Origin: a virus
Virus record (IMG/VR): IMGVR_UViG_3300046522_000272
Coordinates: 1 to 39,780 of that record
DNA length: 39,780 nt
Reading direction: 5' to 3' (one strand)
In this document: positions 154-39,780 of the stretch, piece after piece
How the letters are laid out: every line of letters starts with the position of its first letter
Numbering within the stretch: position 1 is the stretch's first letter
Made by a program: the position numbers and the translations under genes
Notes under the pieces: generated by a model
The model's input: the letters and a program-made list of their open reading frames with translations, nothing else
Told to the model about the DNA's origin: nothing
Databases searched by the model: none

Positions 154-1344
154 TTAGGACGCCCCGGATATCTTCGCGGCGTCCTTTTTCTTTCCATAGA
201 CGGCTTCCGCGCGGCTGCCGGCCTGGCTGTCGGCGTCAGGCATCCACCGGCCGTACCGGCGAATGATCATCGACCAGTCAGCGTGGCCCATCTGCTGAGC
301 GACCCACATCGGGTGTTCGCCCGACGACAGCATCATGCTGGCGTAGGTGTGGCGCGTCTGGTACGGGTAGCGGTAGCGCACGCCCGCGCGCTTGATCGCC
401 CATTGCCACAGCGTCTTCCGGATCGGCTGGTCGCCGGCCCAGCGCTCCAGCGTCTGTGGGTTCTGGAATACCTCGTCCCCCTTCAGGTACGTGTGCGCCT
501 TCTGCGCGGTCAACGCTTCGAGCGCCGGCTGCAGCAGCTTCACCTCTCGGCGCCCGGCGGAGGTCTTCGTCGCCTCGGCCTCGTCGGCGTGCTGGGTCTG
601 CGCGCGCGCCACGCGCACAACCCCGCGCAGGAAGTCGACGTCGCCCCAGTCCAAGGCTACCAGCTCGGACGTGCGCAGCCCGGTCCAGAACGCGAACTGC
701 ACCAGGTTGCGCCCCTGCCCTTCCAGCGCGGCCAGGATAGCGGCCTGCTCATCCCGGTCGAACGGGTCGATCTCGTCGTGTTCGTGCGTGGTTGCCGCTT
801 TCTTCCGGTAGGTGTAGCCCGCGAGCGGATTCACCTCCAGCAGTTCGTCGTCGACGGCGGCGTCGAGCGCGGCGCGTAGCACGCTTTGGATGTTCCCCAG
901 TGTCTTGTTGCCAGCAGGGTAGCTCGCCAACTTGTCGCGCACGTGCTTGCGCTTCAGCTCCGTCAACTTCATTTTGCCGAACCAGGGATCCAGCTTCCCC
1001 ATGACGATCTTCCGGTAGGTGTCGTAGCTGCTGGCCTTGCGCTCCAGCTTCTGCCGGTCAAGCCATTTGTCCAGGTAGTCGCCCACCAGCATCAGGTCGC
1101 CCGGCGCCGCGGCCGCCTCCTCGAACCGGGCCGCGATCTTCGACTCGGGGAACGTCGCCCGATAGTCGAAGGTGCCGCTGGCGATCGCGTGCAGGATCGC
1201 CGCGCGGTGCTGCTCAGCCCGTTTTAAATTAGTGGGCGAGGGCTTGAGCTGGACCCTTTCCCGGCAGCGGACGCCCCGGTACATGAAGCTGATTTCGATG
1301 CTGCTTTCCGACGCAGCTTTAACACCCCTCCCGTTTCGACCCAT
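154..1344 (-). CDS. int: Tyrosine-recombinase integrase
   Basis: Catalyses site-specific recombination between attP and the host attB. 396 aa. The N-terminal ~70 residues resemble the DUF3596 arm-binding domain (basic and aromatic, MYRGVRCRERV), followed by a SAM-like core-binding domain (~85-175) and the catalytic domain (~195-375). Visible active-site residues are Arg224 (GLRTSEL), Lys260, Arg331-His332 (QTRHTYAS), His354 (MGHADW) and the nucleophile Tyr364 (RRYGRW). It is the last gene of the leftward operon, its 3' end facing attP. Its start lies inside the excisionase gene, so the two overlap by about 120 bp and are probably translated from one message. An internal ATG at 1284 is a possible alternative start. 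Confidence 0.95.
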   Translation of the reverse strand: MGRNGRGVKAASESSIEISFMYRGVRCRERVQLKPSPTNLKRAEQHRAAILHAIASGTFDYRATFPESKIAARFEEAAAAPGDLMLVGDYLDKWLDRQKLERKASSYDTYRKIVMGKLDPWFGKMKLTELKRKHVRDKLASYPAGNKTLGNIQSVLRAALDAAVDDELLEVNPLAGYTYRKKAATTHEHDEIDPFDRDEQAAILAALEGQGRNLVQFAFWTGLRTSELVALDWGDVDFLRGVVRVARAQTQHADEAEATKTSAGRREVKLLQPALEALTAQKAHTYLKGDEVFQNPQTLERWAGDQPIRKTLWQWAIKRAGVRYRYPYQTRHTYASMMLSSGEHPMWVAQQMGHADWSMIIRRYGRWMPDADSQAGSRAEAVYGKKKDAAKISGAS

Positions 1345-2615: not shown

Positions 2616-3671
2616 TTAAGCTGCCGCGAGCATCGCGGTGATGACGTCTCGCGCCGCCGGCGGACAGACCGCGTTGCCGAGCATGTGCACGGCGTCCCGG
2701 TGCGTGGCCGGGAGGATGTAGTCGTCGGGGAAGCCCATGGCCGCGCGGCACTCCTGCGCGGTCAGCATGCGCGTGCGGTCGCCGTCGACGATGCCCCAGC
2801 GGTCCCGGGTAGTGATGGTGCCCAGCGGCCGACTCAGGCAACGCCCAGTCAGGCCCGAGCCGCCGCCGTAATACGGCATGACGAAGCGATCGCCATGCGC
2901 GCGCCGGCCTGCCTGGACCCTGCGCAGCGTCGCCGCGGCGCGGCCCGGTTTCTCGATCTGCTGCCAGCTCCCGGCGCCGAAGTCGATAATGCTGCGCGCC
3001 GGGAGGTGCGGCCGCTTTGGCAGTTCGACCATGATCGGATGCTTCGCCCGCGCGGCGACGATGAACAGGCGCTCGCGATGCTGCGGCGCGCCGTGGTCCG
3101 CCGCGTCGACGATCATCGGCGTCAGGGCGTAGCCCAGTGCGTCCATCGCCGCGCACCAGGCCGGATACAGCGCCCAACGGGTGAACTCGGGCACGTTCTC
3201 GATCACGGCGAACGCTGGCCGGTGGTATTCGGCAGCAGAAACCACGGCCCAGGCGGTGGAGCGGCTGGCGTCATGTTGCGGGTTGCCGTTGGCCTTCCCG
3301 CGCGCCTTGCTGTGCCCCTGGCAGCAGGGCGACGCCATCAGCAGGTCGTGCGCCGGCACCTCCGCCCAGTTGGCCTGGCGAAGGTCCTGGCATGCATGCT
3401 CTGCGCCGGGGTGGTTCTGCGCGTGGATCGCGACGGCGCTTTCCCAGTGGTTCGCCGCCCACACAACGTCGATGCCGGCCATCTTGGCGCCAGTGCTGAA
3501 GCCCCCGGCACCGGCAAACAAGTCGATCGCCTTCATGCCGAAGCTCCCGGCGCCGCCGGCATTGCGGAACGCGGGCCACACATCGTCATCGTTCAACGCG
3601 ACGAGCACCAGGGCGTCGTCATCGGGCAGCGCCGCTGCCGTATCGGTCCATTCGGGCATCAGCGCTACCAT
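2616..3671 (-). CDS. C5-cytosine DNA methyltransferase with DUF551-like N-terminus
   Basis: Transfers a methyl group from SAM to C5 of cytosine, probably protecting phage DNA from host restriction. 351 aa. Motifs in order: DLFAGAGGFS (I, ~50-59), SPCCQGH with nucleophile Cys116 (IV), ENVPEF (VI, ~158), QHRERLF (VIII, ~197) and GNAVCPPAARDV (X, C-terminus). No restriction endonuclease lies nearby, so it is an orphan enzyme. Residues 1-45 are not methyltransferase; they resemble a DUF551 domain (EWTDTAAALPDDDALVLVAL, then a Trp). The catalytic domain has its own Met46 (start 3536) preceded by GGGAG about 7 nt upstream, so both a fusion and a shorter enzyme could be made. Confidence 0.92.
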   Translation of the reverse strand: MVALMPEWTDTAAALPDDDALVLVALNDDDVWPAFRNAGGAGSFGMKAIDLFAGAGGFSTGAKMAGIDVVWAANHWESAVAIHAQNHPGAEHACQDLRQANWAEVPAHDLLMASPCCQGHSKARGKANGNPQHDASRSTAWAVVSAAEYHRPAFAVIENVPEFTRWALYPAWCAAMDALGYALTPMIVDAADHGAPQHRERLFIVAARAKHPIMVELPKRPHLPARSIIDFGAGSWQQIEKPGRAAATLRRVQAGRRAHGDRFVMPYYGGGSGLTGRCLSRPLGTITTRDRWGIVDGDRTRMLTAQECRAAMGFPDDYILPATHRDAVHMLGNAVCPPAARDVITAMLAAA

Positions 3672-9868: not shown

Positions 9869-10048
9869 ATGAAGCGAAGTGAACTGGATCAGGTGTGCGA
9901 CGCCGGAACGAGCGAGGCATTGAAGGAAAAGCTGGATACGGTGCTACGCGCCCTTGCGGGCCTGAGTGCTGGGGATGCGAGGCGCGTGCTGCGCTTCGCA
10001 AACAATGCAGTAGACGAACTGCCGGTAATGCCTATTTGTGAGCCTTGA
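9869..10048 (+). CDS. Small hypothetical protein
   Basis: 59 aa, helical and charged (SEALKEKLDTVLRALAGLSA, then GDARRVLRFANNAVDELP). GGAGG lies 5 nt before the ATG at 9869, a strong ribosome binding site. It is the only rightward gene between the two control regions. Its 3' end overlaps the neighbouring leftward gene by 17 bp. No family recognised. Confidence 0.65.
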   Translation: MKRSELDQVCDAGTSEALKEKLDTVLRALAGLSAGDARRVLRFANNAVDELPVMPICEP

Positions 10049-10214
10049 CGAATTCCGTTGCGTGCTGGAGGTCCTGCTGTAAATCCTTCCAGTTGTGCAT
10101 GGATATCCGCCCCGTCTTCATAACAAGCGCCTGGACATTTCGGCTTATTGATTGCAGCATAGCCAATTGCGCAGCCTGCATTGCCATAAACTTTTCGAAT
10201 TGTTCGTCAGTCAT
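10032..10214 (-). CDS. Small hypothetical protein of the lysogeny region
   Basis: 60 aa, Gln/Met-rich and predicted helical (EQFEKFMAMQAAQLAMLQSI). GGAG lies 5 nt before the ATG at 10214. GC is clearly lower than in neighbouring lytic genes, as for the two exported-protein genes upstream. No family recognised. Confidence 0.65.
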   Translation of the reverse strand: MTDEQFEKFMAMQAAQLAMLQSISRNVQALVMKTGRISMHNWKDLQQDLQHATEFVKAHK

Positions 10215-10235
10215 ATTCACTCCATAGTTTGGATT

Positions 10236-10265
10236 ATTCCCCGCCGCGAGCGGGGATTATTTTTA
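10236..10265. terminator. Probable bidirectional hairpin terminator
   Basis: ATTCCCCGC-CGCGA-GCGGGGAT is followed on the plus strand by TATTTTTA. It would end the rightward gene at 9869-10048; on the minus strand the T-run is weak. It sits directly downstream of the exported-protein gene at 10263. Confidence 0.6.
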
Positions 10266-10625
10266 CTTAACCTTATTAGTCGTGCCGAGGATTCCTTTAA
10301 CTGAATCCTCGGTATCTTGAATAGGGAAAGCAGACATTTTGTCATTACTGTCTATGAACATCGTCGACTGAAGCACTTGGCGCGGCGACCCAACCGGTTT
10401 TCCGTCCTTATCCATAGGAGTGTAGTTAACTAACTGCCAGACCCGCCCAGTCTGAGTGTCCAGCAAGAATCGATCGGCGCGCACGTCAGATAGTTGGCCC
10501 AAAACGAAACGGCCATTCTCAGAGGACAGGACTTTTTGCGCCGAAGCCACTGTTTTCATTGGTTCCGCTGCAAGTACGTAGGAGCTAAGTGCAACAAGCA
10601 ATCCAACTGCGAAAATTCTTTTCAT
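10263..10625 (-). CDS. Exported protein, candidate lysogenic conversion gene
   Basis: 120 aa. Residues 1-19 are a typical signal peptide (MKRIF, then a Val/Leu/Ala core ending VLAAEP) with probable cleavage after Ala-Ala. No lipobox cysteine. The mature part is hydrophilic (RFLLDTQTGRVWQLVNYTPM), suggesting a small periplasmic domain. The start at 10625 follows GAAAGAGAA. Base composition is AT-rich relative to the rest of the phage, a sign of separate acquisition. It lies downstream of the repressor on the same strand, so it is probably expressed in lysogens. Exclusion of related phages is one possible role. Confidence 0.75.
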   Translation of the reverse strand: MKRIFAVGLLVALSSYVLAAEPMKTVASAQKVLSSENGRFVLGQLSDVRADRFLLDTQTGRVWQLVNYTPMDKDGKPVGSPRQVLQSTMFIDSNDKMSAFPIQDTEDSVKGILGTTNKVK

Positions 10626-10687
10626 TTTTCTCTTTCGGGTCAATCACATGCATGCTATGGCGTCTCTATCTACAAGCAGATCTATAC

Positions 10688-10960
10688 TTATGCGCACTTG
10701 AATACTAGGTCGACTGTATGCATTCCGTCCGTCCAGGTCGGTGCTTTTGCATTTTCCGATACGACGTTGACGGAGCCGCCATGTTTGGCGCATTCACGCT
10801 CAGCATCAGCATAGGCCGCCCCCTTCGCTTTTGCGCTACCGCCTGCACCTGGAGACGCTGTTGTCGTCACGGTGTAAGTGTCCGGCCCGGATTTAAATAC
10901 GCCGGACGTTGATGCGCAGCCAGTCAATAACACCGCCGTAAGAAATACGATTCGTTTCAA
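10688..10960 (-). CDS. Outer-membrane-type lipoprotein, candidate lysogenic conversion gene
   Basis: 90 aa. Signal peptide with lipobox LLTGC (Cys15), no Asp at +2, so outer-membrane sorting is likely. The mature domain has strands (DTYTVTTTAS), AAYADAERECAKHGG, VNVVSE and a C-terminal FKC; two cysteines may form a disulfide. The arrangement resembles small phage and host lipoproteins of the YgdI/Cor type only in general shape. It begins with TTG at 10960, 13 bp after the repressor stop codon, so it is probably co-transcribed with the repressor. Confidence 0.75.
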   Translation of the reverse strand: MKRIVFLTAVLLTGCASTSGVFKSGPDTYTVTTTASPGAGGSAKAKGAAYADAERECAKHGGSVNVVSENAKAPTWTDGMHTVDLVFKCA

Positions 10961-10973
10961 AATTTAGCCCCAT

Positions 10974-11657
10974 TCAAATGTGCGTACTTTCTTTCCGAAC
11001 CACGCGTCCAATTACGATGCATTCGGCGCCCTTGCATAACTTCCGATGATATTTTCGTTGATCGGCATTATCAGAGGCGAGCCACCATTGCCCAGCATCA
11101 CGAATCATTCGCTTAACGACCGCTTCGCCTTCGTAATTCACGACATACACCGCGCCATCGACGAGCTTGGTATCGCGGGTGTTCACGACGATCACATCGC
11201 CGTCGTACAGAGCCGGCTCCATGCTTTCGCCCTTTACGACAATCGAGAGCAGCGCATCCTGCGATAACCCCTCGCGTAAGACCCACTTCCTCGGTACGCC
11301 CTGCGTCTCGCCGTCGTAGTGCTCGGGCTCGACCTGGAAACCGGTAATACCCGCCTGCACCTTCAACCTCACCTTCATGATCTGCACCAAGTCAGGGTCG
11401 TCGGGCCCGACTGCGCGGACACGCATGGCGCCCGGGATCAGATCAATCACGCCGGATACCGCGTCAGCAGCTGCACCTGGGTCGCGGTCCAGATAACCCG
11501 CGCCCATCCCGTACTGCTCCTCCAGGCGGCGAGCGACCTTCTCACCGAACGAGCCGTTCGCCTTCAGCTGAGAAAACAAGCTTTTTTCGTTCGGAGGCGT
11601 GCCGTGCTCAGCAACCCATCGGCGCAGGTTCTGCCTGCGGATTTCAATAATGTCCAT
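10974..11657 (-). CDS. cI: S24-type self-cleaving phage repressor (CI-like)
   Basis: 227 aa. The N-terminal ~60 residues (IEIRRQNLRRWVAEHG, then KSLFSQLKANGSFGEKVARR) form a DNA-binding domain. The C-terminal domain (~95-225) is LexA/S24 peptidase: Ser145 in KGESMEPAL and Lys182 in VVKRM, 37 residues apart as in the family, with a candidate Ala102-Gly103 cleavage bond (VQAGITG). RecA filament should trigger cleavage and prophage induction. The ATG at 11657 is preferred to an in-frame GTG at 11693 because the domain starts there, and a -10-like TAAACT ends only 7 nt upstream, implying a leaderless message. Confidence 0.93.
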   Translation of the reverse strand: MDIIEIRRQNLRRWVAEHGTPPNEKSLFSQLKANGSFGEKVARRLEEQYGMGAGYLDRDPGAAADAVSGVIDLIPGAMRVRAVGPDDPDLVQIMKVRLKVQAGITGFQVEPEHYDGETQGVPRKWVLREGLSQDALLSIVVKGESMEPALYDGDVIVVNTRDTKLVDGAVYVVNYEGEAVVKRMIRDAGQWWLASDNADQRKYHRKLCKGAECIVIGRVVRKESTHI

Positions 11658-11664
11658 CCGCAAC

Positions 11665-11693
11665 AGTTTAGAGATTTCTAAATTAGTATTCAC
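11665..11693 (-). promoter_or_regulatory. Repressor promoter (PRM-like)
   Basis: Leftward GTGAAT (11693-11688), 17-bp spacer, TAAACT (11670-11665). The -35 is poor (3 of 6), as expected of a maintenance promoter needing activation. The ATG at 11657 follows the -10 box by 7 nt, so the transcript probably has no leader. The operator at 11666-11683 covers the -10 box. Confidence 0.6.
11666..11683. promoter_or_regulatory. Operator over the repressor promoter
   Basis: GTTTAGAGATTTCTAAAT: 6-6-6 inverted repeat with one mismatch (GTTTAG / CTAAAT). It overlaps the -10 box of the repressor promoter, so binding by Cro (or excess repressor) would shut off repressor synthesis. Confidence 0.75.
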
Positions 11694-37022: not shown

Positions 37023-37415
37023 ATGAAAGTCCAAAACATGAGCGAACCAATTTCCGGCGCGGCGGCCGGCGTAGCAGGCTGGAAGATCCTCGGCGGCCTG
37101 GCCGGTACCGGCGTTGGCGCCGGATTGGCCGCCTACATCGTGATGTCCATGACGAAACCGCGCACCAATCAGGAATGGCACGTCGCGCTGATTTGCACGC
37201 TGGCCGGCTCGATTGGCGGCGGCGCCGCGCTCATAAGCTGGCTCGGCATCCAGCGCTGGGCCGACGACGTGTTCGGCCTCGTTGGCATGTTCGGCATCGC
37301 GTTCGCGTGCGGGCTGCCGGCCTGGCTGATCGTGCGCGCGCTGTTCGCGTACATCGAAAAGAAGCGCGACGCCGACATCACCGAGATCGTCAAGGACGTG
37401 AAGGAGATGATCTGA
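37023..37415 (+). CDS. Holin with three membrane spans
   Basis: 130 aa (from 37023) or 125 aa (from 37038). Three hydrophobic segments (LGGLAGTGVGAGLAAYIVMS, ICTLAGSIGGGAALISWLGI, VGMFGIAFACGLPAWLIVRA) and a charged C-terminus (KKRDADITEIVKDVKEMI). Position before the endolysin and the topology identify a holin that times membrane opening. The two ATGs, with an extra Lys in the longer form (MKVQNM), recall dual-start holin/antiholin genes. Confidence 0.82.
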   Translation: MKVQNMSEPISGAAAGVAGWKILGGLAGTGVGAGLAAYIVMSMTKPRTNQEWHVALICTLAGSIGGGAALISWLGIQRWADDVFGLVGMFGIAFACGLPAWLIVRALFAYIEKKRDADITEIVKDVKEMI

Positions 37416-37870
37416 TGCCCCCTAGCGCCTTCATCGGCATGCTGGCCCAGGCCGCGCAGGACTGCCAGCGCAGGACCGGAATTCCGGCATCCATCACCCT
37501 GGCCCAGGCTGCGCTCGAATCCTCGTGGGGCGCGCGCGCCATCGGCAACAACCTGTTCGGCATCAAGGCGGACAAGTCGTGGACCGGGCCCACCGTCACG
37601 TTCCAGACCACCGAGCACCTGGGCGGCAAGGACGTGAAGTTGCCCGACCAGTTCCGCCGCTACCCGAGCTGGCTGGATAGCATGGTCGACCACGCGCAAT
37701 TCCTGCTGAAGAACCCGCGCTATGCGGCCTGCTTCAAGGAGACGACGGGGCCCGGCTGGGCGCGCGCGCTGCAGGCGGCCGGCTACGCCACCGATCCGGA
37801 CTACGCGAAGAAGCTGATCGACATCATGCGCGGCCGCAACCTCGCCTTCTACGACGAGGTGCATTCATGA
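37415..37870 (+). CDS. Endolysin, FlgJ-type glucosaminidase (GH73)
   Basis: 151 aa. PPSAFIGMLAQAAQDCQRRT, LAQAALESSWG (with the catalytic Glu), NNLFGIKADKSW, RFYxS-like RRYPSWLDSMVDHAQFLL and AGYATDPDYAKKL form a complete GH73-like domain that cleaves N-acetylglucosaminyl bonds of peptidoglycan. No signal peptide, so release depends on the holin. The ATG shares a base with the holin stop; the spanin gene overlaps its end. Confidence 0.93.
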   Translation: MPPSAFIGMLAQAAQDCQRRTGIPASITLAQAALESSWGARAIGNNLFGIKADKSWTGPTVTFQTTEHLGGKDVKLPDQFRRYPSWLDSMVDHAQFLLKNPRYAACFKETTGPGWARALQAAGYATDPDYAKKLIDIMRGRNLAFYDEVHS

Positions 37871-38373
37871 CCGCGCTGGAACGCCTGCTGATCGGCGCCG
37901 TGGTGGCCGCCCTGCTCGCGGTGGGCGCCTGGCGCGTGGCCATGTATTACGGCGACACGCGGTATGACGCCGGGTACGACGCCGCCGTCGCCGCCGGCCA
38001 GAAGCAGCGCGACCGGGAAGCCGACGAGAACCGCAAAGCCGAATCGGACCTGCGCGCCCAACTGGCCGCGCGCGACGTCGAAGCACAACGAAAGGAAGAG
38101 AAATATGCCGAAAGTCTCGATGCTGCTCAGCGCCGCGTGCGCACTGGCACTGACCGGCTGCACTGCCCCGCGGCCAGTCCCGTACAGCCCGCCGCCGCGC
38201 CCGGTGATCGACCCGCTGCCGCCGGCGCTCCAGCTGACGGACAAGGACCGGACGTTGTGCCGGAGGCTGCTGCAGACCTTCTCGGCATCGCCGCAGACGT
38301 TGCAGGACTCGTGCGGCGATACGACCAGGTCGTCGAGCGCTTCGAAAACTGCAGGGCCGTGAACGCGAAATGA
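37867..38373 (+). CDS. Rz: Rz-like inner-membrane spanin
   Basis: 168 aa. An N-terminal signal anchor (~7-27, LLIGAVVAALLAVGAWRVAM) is followed by a periplasmic helical segment with heptads (~45-95, RDREADENRKAESDLRAQLA) and a Pro/Ala linker. A second helix is at the C-terminus (DVAGLVRRYDQVVERFENC). It pairs with the nested lipoprotein to disrupt the outer membrane at the end of lysis. Start overlaps the endolysin stop (ATGA). Confidence 0.88.
   Translation: MTALERLLIGAVVAALLAVGAWRVAMYYGDTRYDAGYDAAVAAGQKQRDREADENRKAESDLRAQLAARDVEAQRKEEKYAESLDAAQRRVRTGTDRLHCPAASPVQPAAAPGDRPAAAGAPADGQGPDVVPEAAADLLGIAADVAGLVRRYDQVVERFENCRAVNAK
38105..38362 (+). CDS. Rz1: Rz1 outer-membrane spanin lipoprotein, nested in Rz
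   Basis: 85 aa in the +1 frame, wholly inside the Rz gene. Signal peptide MPKVSMLLSAACALALTGC with lipobox LTGC (Cys19), then a Pro-rich mature start (PRPVPYSPPPRPVIDPLPP), typical of Rz1. GGAAG lies upstream of the ATG. It would anchor in the outer membrane and bind the Rz periplasmic domain. Confidence 0.88.
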   Translation: MPKVSMLLSAACALALTGCTAPRPVPYSPPPRPVIDPLPPALQLTDKDRTLCRRLLQTFSASPQTLQDSCGDTTRSSSASKTAGP

Positions 38374-38633
38374 CTGACTACCACGTCATCACGGCGGCCG
38401 GCACCGACCACGTGATGACCGTGGACAGTTCCGGCCTCACCATCATCCCATCGCAAGGAATACCACATGGACGAAATCACGCAAGACGAAATCCCGGCGC
38501 CAGATCCGGACCTCATTCAGGACCAGGGGCGCATCCGCCTGGAGCAACTGCTGGAGAACGGCAATCGGTCGCTGCTGGATGCGCAATCGATCGACACGAC
38601 GAAGATTCCGCCGCCGAAGGCGCCGTGACTTGA
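38370..38633 (+). CDS. Doubtful small protein after the spanins
   Basis: 87 aa from an ATG overlapping the Rz stop (ATGA). The first ~30 residues (DYHVITAAGTDHVMTVDSSG) read like a real protein, but the rest is shared in another frame with the gene at 38467 and is Gly/Arg/Pro-rich. Either only the N-terminal part is meaningful or the frame is decayed. Confidence 0.35.
   Translation: MTDYHVITAAGTDHVMTVDSSGLTIIPSQGIPHGRNHARRNPGARSGPHSGPGAHPPGATAGERQSVAAGCAIDRHDEDSAAEGAVT
38467..38628 (+). CDS. Small acidic protein
   Basis: 53 aa, Asp/Glu/Gln-rich (MDEITQDEIPAPDPDLIQDQ, then a helix and IPPPKAP). AAGGA precedes the ATG by 9 nt. The strong acidic bias and codon use support coding. No family recognised. 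Confidence 0.6.
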   Translation: MDEITQDEIPAPDPDLIQDQGRIRLEQLLENGNRSLLDAQSIDTTKIPPPKAP

Positions 38634-38779
38634 CGCCGCCGCGTCGGCTCGGCCACGACCCGGCAGATGAGCGCGAAGCCCGCGCCGTGGTCGGCCAGGT
38701 AGGCGGCCGCGACGCGCGCGTCATCCATGGCCAGCGCCTCGTCGACAGCGCGGGCAAGTTCGGTGTTGGGCCGGTCCAT
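38513..38779 (-). CDS. Small protein divergent from imuA
   Basis: 88 aa. Residues 1-~50 (TELARAVDEALAMDDARVAA, AYLADHGAGFALICRVVAEP) have strong GC-rich codon use and read as a helical protein; similar short proteins occur in Burkholderiales. From ~51 on, codon use is random because the frame becomes antisense to the acidic-protein gene, so the natural C-terminus may have been lost. No Shine-Dalgarno is seen. It points away from imuA across the LexA box. Confidence 0.5.
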   Translation of the reverse strand: MDRPNTELARAVDEALAMDDARVAAAYLADHGAGFALICRVVAEPTRRRQVTAPSAAESSSCRSIAHPAATDCRSPAVAPGGCAPGPE

Positions 38780-38847: not shown

Positions 38848-38867
38848 TACTGTACACATATACAGTA
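38848..38867. promoter_or_regulatory. Perfect LexA (SOS) box
   Basis: TACTGTACACATATACAGTA contains the consensus CTGT-N8-ACAG with extended TA flanks on both sides. It overlaps a -10-like TATACT at 38846-38851 and lies 13 bp before the imuA ATG. LexA should repress imuA until DNA damage. The box is symmetric, so it may also control the divergent small gene. Confidence 0.92.
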
Positions 38868-38880
38868 TTGCAGGACGACA

Positions 38881-39615
38881 ATGACCGCCCTTCCCGACCC
38901 CGAAGCACTTCATCCGTCGCTGTGGCGCGCCTCTCAGCTCGCTCGCAGCCAGACGCGCTGCATCGACACTGGGTTTCCCAGCCTGTCAAACCAGCTGCCG
39001 GGCGGCGGATGGCCGGTGAGCACGATGGTTGACCTGCTGCTGAAGCAGAACGGGATCGGAGAAATGCGGCTGCTCGCGCCTGCGCTGCGCACGGTGGCTG
39101 AGCGCCGCGTCGTGCTGCTGCAGCCGCCGCACGCGCCGCAGGCGCTCGCCCTGGCCGCGCTGGGTCTGCCGCCGGCGTCCGTGATCTGGCTCCGCGCCGA
39201 GCGCACTGGCGACATGATGTGGGCGGCCGAACAGGTGCTGCGCAGCGGGAGCTGTGGCGCGCTCCTGTTCTGGCCGGATCAAGTCGGATCGGGCAGCGCG
39301 CGGTACCGGCCTGTGAGGTCGGACAACCTGCGCCGCCTGCACCTGGCCGCCCAGGCCGGCGAGACACTGTTCTTCATGATGCGCCCGCTGGCTTCCGCGA
39401 CGGACCCGTCGCCCGCGCCGCTACGCCTGAGTCTGGAGCCGACCAGTGGAGGGATCAACGTCGGGTTCGTGAAGCGGCAGGGCCCCGTGCGCGACGAGCC
39501 GTTGTTCTTGCCGATGCAGATCGGGCACGTCCGGCCTGCTCAGCCGCGGCGCGACGTGGTGCCAGAACGAGCGGTTTACAGTGCGGCGCAGGTGGCCGCG
39601 ATGGCGAATGCCTGA
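38881..39615 (+). CDS. imuA: ImuA, SOS mutagenesis RecA/SulA-like protein
   Basis: 244 aa. The ImuA pattern is clear: PEALHPSLWRASQLAR, IDTGFPSLSNQLPGGGWPVS, IGEMRLLAPALR, ASVIWLRAERTGDMMWAAEQ, VLRSGSCGALLFWPDQ, LRRLHLAAQAGETLFFMMRP and LRLSLEPTSGGINVGFVKRQ. It has a RecA-like fold without a Walker GKT. In hosts ImuA works with ImuB and DnaE2 in error-prone lesion bypass; neither partner gene is here. AGGA lies 6 nt before the ATG at 38881, and a perfect LexA box precedes it. It ends 65 bp before the att core, so it would sit at one end of the prophage as cargo. Confidence 0.92.
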   Translation: MTALPDPEALHPSLWRASQLARSQTRCIDTGFPSLSNQLPGGGWPVSTMVDLLLKQNGIGEMRLLAPALRTVAERRVVLLQPPHAPQALALAALGLPPASVIWLRAERTGDMMWAAEQVLRSGSCGALLFWPDQVGSGSARYRPVRSDNLRRLHLAAQAGETLFFMMRPLASATDPSPAPLRLSLEPTSGGINVGFVKRQGPVRDEPLFLPMQIGHVRPAQPRRDVVPERAVYSAAQVAAMANA

Positions 39616-39653
39616 CGGTGGAATGGCGGCTTTTTGCCAACATGCCGCCTGAA

Positions 39654-39780
39654 ACCCGCATGGCTGCTCAAATTCCGCAGGTTCGATTCCCTCCGCCTCC
39701 ACCAGTACACTGTTTTAAATCAAGTACTTAGGTGCTTGAAGCTGTCGCCAAATGGGATGAAATGGTGCTGTTCTGGCACC
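39654..39780. repeat. Terminal direct repeat, right copy
   Basis: Exact copy of bases 1-127. It begins 38 bases after the imuA stop codon and carries the second copy of the attachment core at 39680-39704. See the left copy for the interpretation as a circular closure. Confidence 0.95.

Follow-up and report, generated by a model that had tools for sequence, protein, structure and literature searches.

The nearest described relatives of the gene reported here are the chromosomal imuA-imuB pairs, with or without dnaE2, of Massilia and other Proteobacteria. Their ImuA belongs to the proteobacterial ImuA1 group, in which the Walker motifs are absent (PMC12926913). In mycobacteria the RecA-NT motif of ImuB binds ImuA, and the docking has been predicted (PMC11791113). 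SOS-type mutagenesis genes can also be mobile: imuABC cassettes occur on the symbiotic plasmid of Cupriavidus taiwanensis (PMC4151985) and on other Burkholderia and Cupriavidus plasmids, and are able to act, and to raise mutation, in a new host. Other mobile-element proteins that enter the host SOS network include gp7 of phage GIL01 (PMC4551915) and Ref of P1 (PMC4713147), neither of which is an ImuA or known to be related to one. A literature search for ImuA with phage, prophage or Massilia, in a collection outside which most subscription papers lie, brought up no description of an orphan ImuA on a phage. Plasmid PsiB, directed at LexA or RecA, is a further mobile-element protein that is not an ImuA.

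The window, by which we mean the whole stretch of DNA analysed here, is a complete IMG/VR record of 39,780 b. It begins and ends with a 127-b direct repeat (1-127 = 39654-39780), so that the map, once closed, is circular and measures 39,653 bp. The features referred to below are as follows.

1-127, no strand: 127-b terminal direct repeat, left copy; the attP core lies inside it at 27-54
154-1344, minus strand: tyrosine integrase (PHROG 1, E 1.9e-59, and Pfam PF00589), across attP from imuA
10974-11693, minus strand: CI-type phage repressor with an S24 peptidase domain (PF00717, E 7e-20)
37415-38373, plus strand: lysis module of endolysin (37415-37870) and Rz-like spanin (37867-38373), just 5' of the cargo slot
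38513-38779, minus strand: small ORF of 88 aa (dORF), divergent from imuA, with the SOS box in the shared intergenic region
38850-38865, plus strand: LexA-type SOS box CTGTACACATATACAG; 15 bp separate its end from the start codon of imuA
38881-39615, plus strand: imuA, encoding an orphan ImuA of 244 aa (ATG at 38881, stop at 39615; NCBIfam NF033429)
39654-39780, no strand: 127-b terminal direct repeat, right copy, closing the circular map
39680-39707, no strand: attP core; its 28 bp match exactly the 3' end of the Massilia tmRNA (ssrA) gene and 3 further bp

Judged from its sequence, the window is a temperate tailed phage of Massilia, with recombination genes (YqaJ, RecT), a terminase, portal and head-tail proteins, and a Cro-like gene opposite the repressor gene. 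The repressor, which the initial annotation had called RecA-cleavable, is of the autocleavable S24 type and has the Ala-Gly site, the GESM serine and the VVKR lysine; its RecA-stimulated cleavage we infer from these residues. A phage-borne C5 cytosine methyltransferase gene lies among the early genes (2616-3671, minus strand). The core sequence GGTTCGATTCCCTCCGCCTCCACCAGTA, found within the terminal repeat, is common to the 3' end of Massilia tmRNA genes and the three bases beyond it, and on this account marks attP. Scans of the window for tRNAs, tmRNA and Rfam families gave no match, since it holds the 3' end of ssrA only. The gene order round the circle is lysis genes, dORF, SOS box, imuA, attP and integrase. 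The placement of imuA beside attP at a prophage end thus held in its first part, the gene adjoining an attP core of the tmRNA type, but not in its second, because the record closes to a circle and the site is the attP of the circular form rather than a host junction. After integration, host DNA would follow directly on imuA as the last prophage gene.

The imuA product matched NF033429 (ImuA_translesion, an equivalog model) over model positions 1-181 of 181 with 210.4 bits against a cut-off of 150 (E 1.9e-62); no family in Pfam or PHROGs matched it. A mechanical ORF call begins at TTG 38842, 5' of the box, a start that we judge unlikely. An AlphaFold2 model based on an alignment of 51 homologues had a mean pLDDT of 78.8, superseding a model of pLDDT 63.5 from a shallower alignment, and its best match in the PDB was RecA (Z 17.8, rmsd 4.3, 199 aligned, residues 1-216). 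Compared with RecA both Walker motifs are lost: GKT is missing from the stretch aligned with GPESSGKT, and W131 stands in place of the Walker B Asp. An insert of 9-10 residues (about residues 132-145) follows the Walker-B strand. By sequence and predicted fold the protein is of the ImuA1 type, a RecA fold without ATPase motifs, and it resembles the chromosomal ImuA1 proteins in family, in its LexA box and in the conservation of the putative docking face as well.

The initial annotation also proposed a SulA-like action on cell division. A division inhibitor of this kind would block FtsZ and delay division during prophage induction. SulA shares its RecA-like fold and LexA control with ImuA, a weak SulA match had an E of 2e-5, and Pseudomonas SulA (PA3008) appeared at the edge of a profile search of solved structures. 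The three SulA models nevertheless scored the window ImuA at 24, 21 and 13 bits, far under their respective cut-offs of 150, 162 and 150, and its clade is nested among ImuA proteins (see below); we regard this activity as very unlikely.

No imuB match was found anywhere in the window, nor an ORF of DnaE2 size (the longest has 715 aa), in agreement with the earlier description of imuA as standing alone; no sigma-70 promoter or terminator was scored near the gene. The plasmid imuABC cassettes that were checked carry imuB and dnaE2 and so bring a polymerase with them, whereas the phages described here bring the RecA-like subunit only and must rely on host partners. In Massilia the usual layout is imuA-imuB with dnaE2, where it is on the same contig, 24-56 kb away (L198-L207 against L126-L145), so that the imuA-imuB-dnaE2 cassette presented as the normal chromosomal setting proved correct for the imuA-imuB pair but not for dnaE2.

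The box CTGTACACATATACAG is the sole exact CTGT-N8-ACAG in the window. As 23 of 100 shuffled sequences contain at least one such motif, its weight comes from position and conservation and not from mere occurrence. An exact match precedes imuA at 49 of 50 viral loci and the looser CTG-N10-CAG at all 50, the motif beginning 31-71 bp before the imuA match; the box is likewise present at each of the seven complete chromosomal orphan copies, and the same motif is found at the lexA promoter in six of six Massilia genomes. The SOS box claimed for this gene is therefore borne out, and imuA is, by its promoter motif, a predicted member of the LexA regulon.

ImuA proteins of the window's kind are encoded by 50 IMG/VR contigs, the window included, and by prophages of isolated Massilia. 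Two scans of IMG/VR gave the 49 further contigs, with relatives of 62-95% identity; some of these form identical or near-identical pairs, so that the distinct proteins number 46 when that of the window is counted, and many of the contigs are metagenomic fragments rather than independent samples. When IMG/VR was scanned a third time, with an alignment spanning the Burkholderiaceae, essentially the same set was recovered along with four more contigs: L235, which falls inside the phage clade, and L226, L252 and L255, which do not. The scans used short conserved peptides and may miss distant relatives. No imuB lies beside imuA in the window or in the examined flanks of the 49 other viral loci. Among cultured phages, tblastn against 50,697 deposited genomes in INPHARED gave no match at E 1e-3.

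ImuA was above the cut-off in 60 of the 62 Massilia genomes examined. Nine second imuA copies without imuB were spread over eight of them, and all eight (8/8) also have the chromosomal imuA-imuB and dnaE2. An environmental Massilia lysogen, strain YIM B02443, carries two orphan copies in addition to its chromosomal imuA-imuB. Several of these orphan copies are flanked by tail, lysis or integrase genes. One (L138) is incomplete; another (L130; L308:11983-12702, NZ_CP019036.1), of the same clade, is carried by a mobilizable plasmid of Massilia putida and has no recognisable box. The idea that extra Burkholderiaceae imuA copies are generally orphans was rejected, as imuA is followed by a complete or almost complete imuB at 18 of the 20 loci taken from other genera, the exceptions being L173, without imuB, and L182, with a partial one.

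Maximum-likelihood analysis of 138 ImuA proteins placed the 46 viral and eight orphan genome copies in a single clade of 54 rows (ultrafast bootstrap 100, SH-aLRT 98), which is separate from the Massilia-type chromosomal imuA-imuB copies and adjoins their clade. When the tree was rerun with four rows added and two gappy rows dropped, there were again 54 such rows with zero intruders (SH-aLRT 95). Tree and NF033429 score (210 bits against 150) together identify the protein as a true ImuA and not a member of a non-ImuA RecA-like group, and the search of phages and prophages that the initial annotation had proposed revealed a phage-specific clade rather than an isolated curiosity. One clade of mobile copies speaks for a single capture followed by long persistence on mobile elements. 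The protein family is known; what is new is the phage-specific lineage without partners.

The gene is under strong purifying selection, and its SOS box is kept with it: Nei-Gojobori dN/dS of the core is 0.127 within the subclade to which the window belongs and 0.149 within a second one, compared with 0.176 for a chromosomal group. At the C-terminal tail selection is relaxed (dN/dS 0.45). This is to be expected, as in chromosomes the tail shares about 70 bp with the start of imuB, an overlap that the phage copies lack. The insert, a feature of the window's subclade, occurs in 31 mobile copies, that of the window among them, and in none of 80 chromosomal copies; about two fifths of the phage clade do not have it. 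With both insert and relaxed tail, the window's ImuA is not simply a second host ImuA, which counts against the reading that we prefer below.

Comparison of the viral loci indicates that the gene moves. The window's terminase was found in only one of 43 other imuA-bearing viral records, some of them fragments, and several unrelated integrase types adjoin imuA, which argues that imuA passes between phage backbones. Contig L274 shares 93% identity with the window in its attP-integrase DNA, beginning at 39622, 7 bp past the imuA stop; the small divergent ORF and a LexA box are present too, but a gene for a 98-aa protein stands in the place of imuA. This clean substitution points to imuA as exchangeable cargo at one slot. 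The 98-aa protein was noted at L272, L273, L275 and L279-L307 as well, and its gene has relatives on 29 viral contigs, whose examined flanks contain no imuA. A box of this kind was counted at 11 of the 29, significantly fewer than at imuA loci (Fisher p 2e-9), which suggests that the box goes with imuA. The replacing gene itself lies at L274:2110-2553 on the minus strand, with the start likely inside this interval; its product reads MYGKVKRLRDHGRRLSNREINQMP... and weakly matches phrog_5560.

With its own promoter region and box, its exchange in a near relative and its presence on unrelated backbones, imuA has the marks of a moron, and on these comparisons it is an old, selected and exchangeable SOS cargo between the lysis genes and attP. 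Its position beside attP, where host DNA picked up by imprecise excision collects, might instead suggest a hitchhiking fragment of no use to the phage. The age of the clade, the dN/dS of 0.13, the unrelated backbones and the gene-for-gene exchange all oppose this, and the purifying selection and conserved box contradict it outright; of the explanations considered it is the least credible.

Viruses of this lineage probably use their orphan ImuA to steer the copying and repair of DNA in a damaged host. In the reading that we prefer, to which we assign a probability of about one half, phage ImuA takes host ImuB as its docking partner and supplies the host's error-prone polymerase, or retunes it, changing lesion bypass. 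In a damaged lysogen RecA* would bring about LexA cleavage, and phage imuA would be switched on at the same time as imuA-imuB and dnaE2 of the host. A conserved acceptor face of phage ImuA (about residues 99-126) would then bind the RecA-NT motif of ImuB, and this docking would alter lesion bypass. The face corresponds to residues 112-139 of RecA, which receive that motif in the RecA filament. ImuA is predicted to dock ImuB there (PMC11791113). Mean pairwise identity among the phage copies is 0.777 in the docking face and 0.762 in the rest of the core, and W103, W114, E117, Q118, V119, L120 and G126 of the face are fixed, conservation that may merely reflect the fold. Co-occurrence with host ImuA or imuB is uninformative here, since nearly all Massilia have them.

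The main rival to docking on ImuB is direct modulation of RecA, whereby phage ImuA would bind RecA and damp recombination or its co-protease function, tuning the extent of the SOS response and the timing of induction of its own or competing prophages. Myxococcus xanthus ImuA is reported, as related in PMC11791113, to bind RecA and inhibit recombination, and GIL01 gp7 (PMC4551915) provides a precedent for LexA-directed phage proteins. A lone ImuA without imuB also fits a target other than the mutasome, and the insert, present in mobile copies only, sits in the loop after the Walker-B strand. The M. xanthus protein, however, belongs to the ATPase group ImuA3, whereas the proteobacterial ImuA1 proteins have no Walker motifs (PMC12926913), and the ImuB-docking face shows no release from selection. 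We consider modulation of RecA rather unlikely.

The same insert, with the released C-terminal tail, could spoil contacts beyond ImuB, and in a published model an extended ImuA loop contacts the DnaE2-ImuB interface (PMC12926913). The phage protein might on this basis act as a dominant-negative brake that fills ImuB without activating DnaE2, so that a damaged lysogen acquires fewer mutations. About two fifths of the clade do without the insert, which therefore does not account for the gene throughout the clade, and a brake seems improbable.

Docking on ImuB remains the most likely action. The broader proposition, that this phage-only lineage is a viral SOS effector which seizes a mutasome subunit, or host RecA, and thereby sets mutation and repair in the lysogen, we hold tentatively, at a little short of even odds; if true, phages control the mutability of their hosts without a polymerase of their own. 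If mutation is changed, lysogeny would alter the evolvability of soil bacteria exactly when their DNA is damaged. A natural, long-detached ImuA that comes with or without an extra loop is a tool for asking whether ImuA serves as a partner of ImuB, a modulator of RecA, or both.

The divergent ORF probably shares the LexA box with imuA. A family HMM found matches next to imuA at about 40 of 58 imuA loci; the proteins have about 55-90 aa and a motif ...ALRELGVPxExAxRVLxxPxxRR, and no match in Pfam or NCBIfam nor a convincing one in PHROGs. The alignment has no conserved stretch, and viral contigs were scanned for dORF with a single sequence. At some loci a second divergent family, of 102 aa, replaces dORF.

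Further imuA arrangements were seen. In L226 and L252 (~8000), contigs of 79 kb and 279 kb classed as viral and perhaps plasmids, an orphan imuA with a LexA box, outside the phage clade, lies beside a DNA-ligase-like gene. A diverged orphan imuA with a box is present in another Burkholderiaceae genome, where it is not in an obvious prophage (L219; G156 C7, ~9939-10790). On a 24-kb viral contig (L255:7977-10977), imuA is followed directly, with no imuB, by a dnaE2-like gene.
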